Shown here: positions 50,911 to 57,306 of the stretch, in pieces | Layout: each line of letters opens with the position of its first letter | Numbering within the stretch: the stretch's first letter is position 1 | Assembly: GCA_021292105.1 (NCBI GenBank) | Contig: CM037860.1 | Coordinates: 13,782,698 to 13,846,697 of the forward strand | DNA length: 64,000 nt | Source: Anadara kagoshimensis | Taxonomy: Eukaryota > Mollusca > Bivalvia > Arcoida > Arcidae | Direction of reading: 5' to 3' | Program-made: the position numbers and the translations under genes | The notes under the pieces: generated by a model | Told to the model about the DNA's origin: nothing | The model's database searches: none | The model's input: the letters and a program-made list of their open reading frames with translations, nothing else

Positions 50911-51196
50911 GGAACTTCCGGTTGGGTGGAACAACATGTAGGTCGTGTTTCAGAACAGCTCCAAAATATTTTTTCAGAAAGTTGTTTAAAAGCCTTAACA
51001 TACCAACTTAAGCTTGAAAAAGTAAAACTAGTAAGTTTATAGATGCGGTCTTGCATTAATAATTAACTGTACATAATCAGCATTTTGATATAAAACGAAG
51101 ATATATACCCCGGGTGATTGACATTGATTGACATTCATATACAGCTCACGTTTTTCCCCGTGCATTCATTCACGCCTGGCTTATATAGATTGAATA
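50911..51196 (+). promoter_or_regulatory. LINE 5' UTR, presumed internal promoter
   Basis: The 286 bp between the element's first base and the ORF1 start. It contains a consensus splice donor, actagtaagt (gt at 51031), and one ATG followed at once by a stop (near 50936). LINE 5' UTRs normally carry the internal polymerase II promoter; no specific core motif was identified. Confidence 0.5.
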
Positions 51197-51919
51197 ATGG
51201 CTAGTAATTCTGACAACATATCTAATACGAAGGGAGATATTTCCGAAGATATAAAGTCTTTATACAAAGATAGAGATATGGTAGAGTGTTTTGCGATGTT
51301 GCAAGCAAAATTAGAATCAAAGCTAGAGTCAAGTATAGAAAATGTCAAGGGAGAGGTGAAAGAATTAAGTAAGAGGGTGGACAACCTAGAAAACTACAGG
51401 GACTTCACAGAGGATTCAATAAAGGAGATAAACGAGAGAGCAATACCGAAGGTTGAAGAAAAACTTGAAGGTGAGCAGAAAGAGAGGATAAAACTCGAAA
51501 TGTGGGGGAGAAAATGGAACCTTATTATTAGAGGGGTGTCGGGGGAATTGAAAGAAAATCCTCGTACAACTGATGGGAAAATTAGAGAATTTTTTAAAGC
51601 TGTGTTGGGTGTCCCAAGTCATCAAGCTGATAATATACTTTTCCAAGCCATACACAGGCTACCAAATGGCATAGAGTCAAAAAGAAACATCATTGTAAGA
51701 TTCAACAATCTGATAGATAGGGATGAAATCTTGGAATTAGCCAAAAAATTGAAAGCCGGCTCTGGTTATGGGATTAGCCCCGATCTGCCCCCTGAAATCA
51801 ACAAAGTGCGAATTAATCTATTACGTGAACGAAATGCCCTACCTGAAACCATGAAGAAAAAAACCAAACTAGTATACATTAGGGAGTACCCGTTTGTACG
51901 ATTATGGACCAAGGCTTAA
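51197..51919 (+). CDS. LINE ORF1 protein (L1 ORF1p-like, Transposase_22 type)
   Basis: 240 residues, starting at ATG 51197 in the first long frame of the element. Residues about 30-95 are a heptad-like coiled coil (MLQAKLESKLESSIENVKGE ... LSKRVDNLEN). An RRM-like domain follows at about 97-175, with RKWNLIIRGVSGE and RNIIVRFNNLIDRDEIL as its two RNP-like strands. A C-terminal domain with ISPDLPPEINKVR, LLRERNAL and KLVYIREYPFVR completes the L1 ORF1p pattern. Such proteins trimerise, bind the element RNA and act as nucleic-acid chaperones in the LINE ribonucleoprotein. The frame is intact. It contains a strong potential splice donor (gaag|gtgagc, 51471) in phase 1, which matters for the NADAR frame downstream. 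Confidence 0.9.
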   Translation: MASNSDNISNTKGDISEDIKSLYKDRDMVECFAMLQAKLESKLESSIENVKGEVKELSKRVDNLENYRDFTEDSIKEINERAIPKVEEKLEGEQKERIKLEMWGRKWNLIIRGVSGELKENPRTTDGKIREFFKAVLGVPSHQADNILFQAIHRLPNGIESKRNIIVRFNNLIDRDEILELAKKLKAGSGYGISPDLPPEINKVRINLLRERNALPETMKKKTKLVYIREYPFVRLWTKA

Positions 51920-52652
51920 TCATAACAATAATCACGATAGACTTACTAAACATTAACCGAAAAAAATCAAATGAATAAGTTGAAATAAAAGTTTATATAA
52001 ACTATAAATTTATTGAAAAGTGATAGAAAAATTACAACATTTGATATATTCTTTTGTCAGTTTTTTTCCTCTCTCGGGGGTTTCTTATTAGAAACAAGTT
52101 GTACATGTTTGAGTTATGCAAATTAGCCACGTGTAAACATGGGTTTTTTTGTCCTTTTCTTTTATCTTCCCGCAATGGGTGAATTCTCATAAAAGTTTAA
52201 ACCGATCCTGAAAATGTGTCAACATTTAAGTCTATATTTAAACTTTAGTTTAAAAATGTTGACGGGTTATATTTTGGTGACCTGCATATGTAAATAAGGG
52301 AAGGTCAAACTAATAGTCGGATCGATAATTCGCTACATGTGATAAGCTTTTTAGAGTGGCTGTTTAGTTTGTGAACTGCGTTATGCAAATAAGGGAAGGT
52401 CACACTAATAGTCGGTCGATAATGCACTGCAAGCGATAAGCTATATAGAGCTTCGGTCACCTGGTCATGCGATTCTGACGGCCGGTTCGATATGCAAATT
52501 AAGGTCATGTTTCGGTGGGTAGTTTTGCATAGCGCAACACATTTGTCTCGACGATAGAAGATACAATTTTATTGTTTTTATTATTTTTCTCCCTACTTGT
52601 TTTCTTTTAAGGTTTTGTACTTCTGTAGTTTTTTTTTTCATTCCTATTACAG
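51920..52652 (+). promoter_or_regulatory. Inter-ORF spacer with repeated octamer/GATA/AGGTCA motifs and a splice acceptor
   Basis: ATGCAAAT octamers occur at 52116, 52383 and 52492, with a variant ATGTAAAT at 52288. Two units of about 95 bp (taaataagggaaggtca ... actaatagtcgg ... gataagct; starts 52287 and 52382) are direct repeats, each with an AGGTCA half-site and GATAAG. A TATA-like gctatatagagc lies at 52440. The spacer ends in a long pyrimidine tract and cag (52650-52652), a good 3' splice site. The regulatory role is inferred from motifs only. Confidence 0.5.
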
Positions 52653-57000: not shown

Positions 57001-57223
57001 TGATCCTCGACACTATAGCATTAATTTATGTTTTCTGATTATAAAATCTTACATCTATCTCTGTAGAGCCAGAAAGACGATACCAAACTACCTAGGTGCT
57101 TTACTTTATTTAAAAAATCATATGACAATAGAAATATTCTCCTCTTTTATGTATCCCTCTAAAAAGGCAAATTTAATTAGATCAAAATGGAAAGTAATTG
57201 AAAAACTCTTTGTGGAAATGTAA
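54086..57223 (+). CDS. LINE ORF2, reverse transcriptase and C-terminal part
   Basis: Continues ORF2 after the frameshift; no intact ATG is needed if read through. It has SDHSPV (end of the endonuclease), a basic linker with ARWLVEGDKSSKFF, then reverse transcriptase blocks: GKSPGLDGFTIEFYKFFW (about codon 208 from 54224), NWRPISLLNVDYKI, LLLDFEKAFDSIEW, GVRQGDPLSPYLF and the catalytic QYADDTCL (about codon 439). A C-terminal zinc knuckle, CTFCFETKE..IHMFCEC (about codon 873), is the zf-RVT type found in L1/Tx1-group LINEs. The frame is otherwise intact to the stop at 57221-57223. Confidence 0.95.
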   Translation, partial: YDSDIDICYRSDHSPVRISFKFLEHEKGRGTWKFNNGLLYDKTYIDLAKECIRNTIDQYATDESGENFSINDQLLWETIKLMLRGKTISYSSHKKKRSMEKEKQLENKLKQYYENEIDASATDIEKVQDDLKELRDERIRGLVLRAKARWLVEGDKSSKFFCNLEKRNFTEKIMSKLIIEDNIEITDQQKIMASQKSFYQSLYSSRNLQTLDKEDLFFNSDNPFINKLSDVDSESLEGKITESECSCALNNMKNGKSPGLDGFTIEFYKFFWKDIKDFVVKSINYGYKNGSFSVSQRQGVITCIPKEGKSKFYLKNWRPISLLNVDYKIASAAIAERIKQKLNIIISETQTGFLKGRYIGESTRLILDIIDRTEAGKIPGVLLLLDFEKAFDSIEWSFIEKSLRFFGFGESIIKWFNTFYSGITSCIQYNGHCSDFFPIERGVRQGDPLSPYLFIIAAELLSAAIKQDPNINGISINDSEYLISQYADDTCLLLNPDETSLNSTIKLLDHFADCSGLRANFDKTEAIWIGVRRGCGEELETVKPLRWNHEGVFKLLGIKFNLNKTPIYIDNYIEKLTCFKKLLLSWSYRNLTTIGKTTVIKSLALPILIQVLTALPDPPPSITNEIQKTIFNFIWNGNTDKVKRNIMYCDQADGGLRVPHIESFYRSLKMTWIKKLIDPFNKSPWKLLLSDITEQFGGYEILFLDESGIKSFSNKLPAFWMDVLENWARLQTNATTTPADILSQPLWYNQLITIDNKMIFNKEMLHKGIFFINDIVNVQGEILNCKECMDIYQVRLKDFDYIRLVHAIPKEWKQKIRGVKKITEIKNDYIQILKKYEKVTKPFYNMYLKKVIEYPTRVKESYHNKLNCYFEVNIWKEIYRSPFRITDDSKLQSLQFKINHNIIFTNARLYKCKLIDTELCTFCFETKETIIHMFCECIHTKSIWYRLLQDLRDKCNIEIKKKTENFLFGIYDDPRHYSINLCFLIIKSYIYLCRARKTIPNYLGALLYLKNHMTIEIFSSFMYPSKKANLIRSKWKVIEKLFVEM

Positions 57224-57306
57224 TAATGATGTAATATTTTGTATCTGTATGTTATATGTTTTTTTGTTAATAGTATGGAAGGACAATAAAAATATTATTT
57301 CCAAAA
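57224..57306 (+). terminator. LINE 3' UTR with poly(A) signal
   Basis: 83 bp with AATAAA at 57285-57290 and a short A-run (57303-57308) that merges with the target-site duplication. Confidence 0.85.

Follow-up and report, generated by a model that had tools for sequence, protein, structure and literature searches.

The window analysed here, a 64-kb stretch of the Anadara kagoshimensis genome (64,000 nucleotides in full), contains a LINE retrotransposon with a frame for a NADAR domain lying between its two open reading frames. This arrangement raises the question of whether the domain is a resident component of the element and, if so, how it would be expressed and what it would do. In our best reading, NADAR is a resident ADP-ribose-handling module that would protect the RNP or the cDNA of the element.

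An L1/Tx1-type element with an internal NADAR frame

The limits of the element and its conventional parts are as follows.

50911..57306, plus strand: LINE element, 6,396 bp; 3' end with a short A-run, AATAAA at 57285
50896..50910, no strand: 5' target-site duplication, 15 bp, AAGAATATTTCACTT
57307..57321, no strand: 3' target-site duplication, 15 bp, same letters as the 5' copy (AAGAATATTTCACTT)
51197..51919, plus strand: ORF1, L1-type ORF1p, 240 aa; coiled-coil helix 28-105, then RRM and CTD
52274..52450, plus strand: 84-bp unit repeated imperfectly (two copies, 83%), in the gap between ORF1 and NADAR
53443..54090, plus strand: ORF2 part 1, APE-type endonuclease (EN), motifs LNCRG and GGDFNV
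54074..57223, plus strand: ORF2 part 2, in a different frame from part 1; carries the EN end (RSDH), RT (YADD) and C-terminal CxxC...H....C

Between the target-site duplications (TSDs), the plus strand carries, in this order, ORF1 (51197-51919), the NADAR frame (52523-53095), EN (53443-54090) and RT (54224-57223). An exact 15-mer was common to only 5 of 20,000 random pairs of 44-bp stretches about 6.4 kb apart (30 start positions in each stretch). The TSD and the A-rich 3' end are both present, as in target-primed insertion, the A-run being short. The coordinates and a match to PF08719 (82.8 bits) thus confirm the layout given in the initial annotation, with NADAR between ORF1 and ORF2 on the same strand and inside identical 15-bp TSDs; its further claim that NADAR moved with the element in this insertion holds as well, given that the domain sits inside one retrotransposition unit with perfect TSDs. 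The perfect TSDs suggest that the copy is young, and the element looks like a near full-length, recent insertion of an L1/Tx1-type LINE. Within the 64-kb window, NADAR, ORF1, EN and RT each turned up only once by tblastn (E up to 0.01), as did the whole element by blastn (E up to 0.001), and the region 50500-58200 yielded no Rfam matches at gathering thresholds.

Judged by its sequence, the element is L1/Tx1-like because ORF1, EN and RT match LINE-1 ORF1p and ORF2p or their kin; the name Tx1 follows PMC12477816. Among PDB sequences, RT best matches 8c8j (E 7e-75; entry name 'RNA-directed DNA polymerase') and LINE-1 ORF2p (E 6e-73), and EN best matches 2v0r (E 8e-14; entry name 'LTX') and LINE-1 ORF2p (E 6e-13). 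At the ORF2 C-terminus, zf-RVT scores 26.4 bits against a cutoff of 27.5, and the CxxC...H....C motif is seen. ORF2 is not one continuous frame: a single frame break at about 54074-54090 splits it, so that this copy is probably dead.

The 12 homologues of ORF1 in the protein database give a profile that matches LINE-1 ORF1p (E 1.1e-5). In the AlphaFold model of ORF1 (mean pLDDT 84), the helix 28-105 is followed by a first RRM strand at 108 and then by a CTD-like part, and the best fold match of the model is the human LINE-1 ORF1p trimer (2yko, E 2.9e-7). By model and profile, all the traits of an L1-type ORF1p (coiled coil, RRM and CTD) are found. Human L1 ORF1p forms trimers via the coiled coil and binds nucleic acid through the RRM and CTD (PMC5860796). 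In eight of the 12 homologues, the C-terminus falls no more than about 12 residues from that of ORF1, P0014 is about 30 residues longer, and P0018-P0020 stop early or diverge. Continuous read-through from ORF1 into NADAR was considered and rejected, given the stops between the two and the ending of 8 of the 12 homologues near the same place.

The gap between ORF1 and NADAR has some features of its own. Within 384 bp (52116-52499), there are three exact ATGCAAAT octamers, and inspection by eye adds one ATGTAAAT as well as AAGGTCA half-sites, these motifs being partly owed to the 84-bp duplication; the window as a whole holds 7 such octamers against 6.2 expected. The motifs in the gap may mark an internal promoter or may have arisen by chance.

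Around the element, the window contains minisatellite arrays at 1983-3404, 35608-36878, 49451-49638 and 59063-60241, of which the 51-bp unit (35608) and the 47-bp unit (49451), about 13 kb apart, look related. Directly downstream of the LINE, at 57480-57560 on the minus strand, a tRNA-like head gives the sequence, by eye, a SINE-like appearance; ARAGORN (bacterial setting) called no tRNA in the window.

The NADAR domain and its relatives

The identity of the domain is supported by several comparisons. The PF08719 match lies far above the cutoff of 35.1 (E 4.2e-23), the NCBIfam family TIGR02464 (riboflavin-intermediate N-glycosidase domain) scores 80.1 against a cutoff of 73.7, and sequence kin in the PDB include E. 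coli YbiA (2b3w, E 8e-11) and the NADAR protein 8bau (E 1.2e-7). A single-sequence structure model of NADAR reached a mean pLDDT of 40, too low for use of the fold.

The NADAR frame runs from stop to stop over 52523-53095, with the core at 52658-53092. The description of this frame as intact stands insofar as it is open through to the stop at 53095, but it has no ATG before the core. A GTG counts as its start only under the bacterial rules of the ORF tool, and the near-cognate codons ahead of the core comprise ATA, ATT and AGG besides a single GTG, which has T at -3. Over 51197-57220, GC3 is 0.39 in ORF1, 0.40 in NADAR and 0.24-0.27 in ORF2, that is, NADAR is near ORF1 and unlike ORF2.

The nearest relative of the domain, P0001, is 61-64% identical to it, depending on the alignment used, with no gap inside the domain. 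In a tree of 34 NADARs, from which P0008 was left out, the window NADAR groups with P0001 (98/96), and the next nearest by path are P0003-P0005; the tree is too sparse to give an origin, and the branch of phage T4 gp30.3 is far too long to place. A search of viral contigs (IMG/VR) with P0007 returned 34 NADAR loci, of which 21 were taken into the alignment and the tree and 13 were left out. Searches of the same viral contigs with NADAR, RT, the NADAR alignment, the ORF1 alignment and P0003 found no relatives, nor did searches of prokaryote contigs with the NADAR and ORF1 alignments. Weak NADAR matches were obtained among phage records (7, at 31-37% identity) and plasmids (3, at 30-33%). RNA viruses with NADARs include annelid and bivalve picornaviruses (PMC9503650), and RNA-virus NADARs are a possible source of the element's domain. 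Two proteins from ENA contigs, P0007 and P0008, consist of a short, Cys-rich, zinc-knuckle-like N-terminus followed by NADAR (zf-C2H2_10 is below cutoff in P0007) and are possibly other element-borne NADARs.

Predicted splicing of ORF1 to NADAR

The missing ATG can be set beside a strong candidate splice acceptor at the very start of the domain. Splice sites were scored with a simple matrix, and all the sites below are predictions.

51471..51472, plus strand: predicted splice donor GT (TTGAAG/GTGAGC), after ORF1 codon 91; top 0.085% of window GTs
52651..52652, plus strand: predicted splice acceptor AG (T-tract, CATTCCTATTACAG/G), at the NADAR domain start
51471..52652, plus strand: predicted alternative intron, 1,182 nt; holds the ORF1 RRM and CTD codons, which are read if unspliced
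52653..53095, plus strand: NADAR coding exon with stop codon; PF08719, TIGR02464 and PDB sequence matches

The NADAR domain starts directly after TTTTTTTTTTCATTCCTATTACAG. By score, the acceptor is second among the window's 6,853 AGs, both strands counted, and about 1% of 3,000 local dinucleotide shuffles reach it (a null of about 0.01). The donor at 51471 is the strongest plus-strand donor-like site of the element, and its phase fits the acceptor. Eight joins from an upstream ATG are open and in phase with a donor score of at least 0, the top three all with this donor; among donors scoring at least 0 in 50921-52600, the remaining open in-phase joins start from a donor at 52179 in the gap (score 1.02) or from one at 51369 in ORF1 (score 0.26), and none has its first exon in the 5' UTR. 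An equally good donor in the same phase arises in 14.8% of 20,000 synonymous-codon permutations of ORF1 (18.8% in any phase). Because the donor is thus not unusual for the encoded protein, the case for splicing depends mostly on the acceptor, the absence of an ATG and the position of the domain boundary.

Joining 51470 to 52653 encodes 238 aa, namely, ORF1 residues 1-91 (coiled coil) followed by NADAR. With the model helix at 28-105 and the RRM from 108, the splice point would lie in the coiled-coil helix ahead of the RRM, about 16 residues before its first strand. We therefore predict, from these sequence features, an alternatively spliced, enzyme-bearing ORF1p isoform that combines the coiled coil with NADAR.

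The relatives offer a mixed picture. In P0001, the open frame runs from FLPYFCVFFSLSIS into the domain, the residues before the domain are such as a pyrimidine tract would encode, and the sole upstream Met, that of the predicted start, stands at a great distance from the domain. In P0003-P0005, by comparison, Met stands directly at the start of the NADAR domain, so that unspliced NADAR frames exist among the kin. The latter observation fits another mode of expression, in which NADAR is the third cistron of the full-length RNA, translated by reinitiation or from a non-AUG start without splicing, as does the position of the frame between two cistrons presumably read from one RNA. We consider this unlikely for the element at hand: ahead of the core there is no in-frame ATG but only the near-cognates listed above, and translation of this kind would leave unexplained why the domain starts at a strong T-tract and acceptor.

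Some of the same features could arise if the segment were passenger DNA, that is, a host NADAR exon copied by chance, with the end of its upstream intron, into one LINE copy. An exon-like edge with an acceptor would be expected of a captured piece of pre-mRNA, and NADAR is annotated in 0 of the 12 ORF1 homologues, ORF1 and NADAR forming one frame in none of them (candidates of 132-420 aa). The lack of annotation counts against a resident domain, although a fusion made by splicing would not be visible as a single frame. Several oyster Tx1 families carry NADAR (PMC12477816) and LINE-linked NADAR therefore recurs; furthermore, the NADAR exon is open over 147 codons, with GC3 near that of ORF1, and the acceptor would have to be in phase with a strong ORF1 donor by luck alone. 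Chance capture is, in our judgment, quite improbable.

A probable histidine at the catalytic position

The key residues of the P. nicotianae NADAR are E43, K50, R79, W89, R93, E125, D130 and W133, and the last-strand residue differs among the NADAR types, being Glu in the YbiA type, Asp in the BC4488 type and His in the phage type (PMC11543638, PMC11125620). In the window NADAR, E32, K39, W77 and W120 agree by spacing with known NADAR residues; in particular, the spacing of 7 between E32 and K39 equals that of the conserved Glu/Lys pair E43/K50 (PMC11543638). The R93 position holds Lys here, as it does in many Glu-type rows of the alignment. The D130 position is occupied by His in the window NADAR and P0001 and by Asp in P0003 and P0004; with His at this position, activity may be altered or lost.

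The MAFFT alignment places H113 at the position of the YbiA-type catalytic Glu. Data at this column are available for 33 of the 34 rows, the truncated P0008 having none there. His is found in all five members of the nearest group (the window NADAR, P0001, P0003, P0004 and P0005) and Glu in all 28 other rows with data, which are not 28 independent cases because 21 of them come from viral contigs found in a single search and many of these are nearly identical. In an ungapped alignment to YbiA, Val is opposite the catalytic Glu and His is one place on, so that the last-strand Glu of the YbiA subfamily is absent here and is matched by His or Val depending on the alignment. Within the nearest group, the preceding residue may be V, I, N, K or S, yet the His itself is constant, which favours His as the functional residue. 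From these alignments, the YbiA-type catalytic Glu appears to be replaced by His in the window NADAR.

A precedent for such a site is phage T4 gp30.3, which aligns with His at the same site as H113 (the record has 152 aa, and the construct in the paper is given as residues 1-208). In vitro, this protein acted as a hydrolase of ADP-ribosyl-guanosine, but it gave E. coli cells no protection from DarT1 (PMC11125620). Activity of the window NADAR is plausible by this analogy, because T4 gp30.3 has the same His and was active in vitro. The substitutions at the E125 and D130 positions could also be taken to mean that the element retains NADAR as a non-catalytic reader of ADP-ribose or RNA. With E32, K39, W77 and W120 all kept, and with the His type active in T4 gp30.3 (PMC11125620), we view such a role as highly improbable.

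The initial annotation had also suggested a role in handling ADP-ribose. Such a role is plausible, given that in vitro several NADAR types freed guanine of its ADP-ribose (PMC11543638, PMC11125620).

Proposed function and comparison with known elements

We give roughly even chances to the combined reading, in which the locus is an L1/Tx1-type LINE with a resident NADAR coding module and a spliced coiled coil-NADAR isoform that brings a histidine-type hydrolase to the RNP. The unspliced RNA would yield ORF1p and ORF2p and would also be the template for reverse transcription, whereas the spliced RNA (51470 joined to 52653) would encode the 238-aa isoform in which NADAR replaces the RRM and CTD behind the coiled coil. 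Through the shared coiled coil, this isoform could enter ORF1p trimers, and the trimers would then carry the putative histidine-type ADP-ribosyl hydrolase to the RNP of the element. The likely class of substrate is ADP-ribose set by host ADP-ribosyltransferases on nucleic acid or on small nucleotides and their derivatives, and the element would presumably gain from its removal. A fuller version, with regulated splicing, two ORF1p isoforms (RRM-CTD and NADAR) in mixed trimers, and the hydrolase packaged in the RNP against host ADP-ribosylation of RNA or cDNA, is put forward tentatively, as a possibility with less than even prospects.

The initial annotation knew of no standard LINE layout with such cargo, a view that has to be given up: several Tx1 LINEs of Crassostrea gigas in Repbase have been reported to carry NADAR domains in their ORF1 proteins, and NADAR has been reported as well in Ectocarpus Gypsy elements, with the proposal that NADAR may process RNA intermediates of the elements (PMC12477816, 2025). 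Among the literature matches listed, this paper alone concerns NADAR in transposable elements, and none of these matches proposes ORF1-to-NADAR splicing or a histidine-type site in LINEs. The present finding is thus not wholly new; what it adds are the splice-like signals and the apparent His-type site. The C. gigas elements are likewise LINEs of the L1/Tx1 kind, with NADAR assigned to the ORF1 protein, whereas here, comparing by description only, the L1-type ORF1 forms a frame of its own, with NADAR about 730 bp further downstream. The Ectocarpus Gypsy elements are also NADAR-bearing retrotransposons, but they are LTR elements with NADAR in Pol, and blastp matches of this NADAR outside Ectocarpus are almost all bacterial (PMC12477816).

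Other comparisons concern single aspects of the locus. In the insect TRAS and Jockey LINEs, ORF1 or ORF2 likewise acquired an additional enzyme domain, but the enzyme is a viral RNA helicase rather than NADAR, and the abstract of the study speaks of no splicing (PMC5563155). The RNA of human L1 also has working donors and acceptors, as seen in SpIREs (PMC5860796); the human 5'UTR/ORF1 splice, however, shortens ORF1p and leaves an RNA unable to retrotranspose in cis (PMC5860796), whereas we propose a useful fusion isoform. T4 gp30.3 shares with the window NADAR the His at the site of the YbiA-type last-strand Glu (PMC11125620) but is phage-borne, is only 23% identical and has no W at the W120 position.

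ADP-ribosylation serves immunity from bacteria to animals, and some viral domains are believed to reverse it (PMC9503650). If the reading is true, a retrotransposon equipped with NADAR would place genomic parasites in the same ADP-ribosylation contest. The spliced ORF1p isoform, if true, would be a case of a LINE using the spliceosome productively, the human 5'UTR/ORF1 splice being one that blocks movement in cis (PMC5860796).
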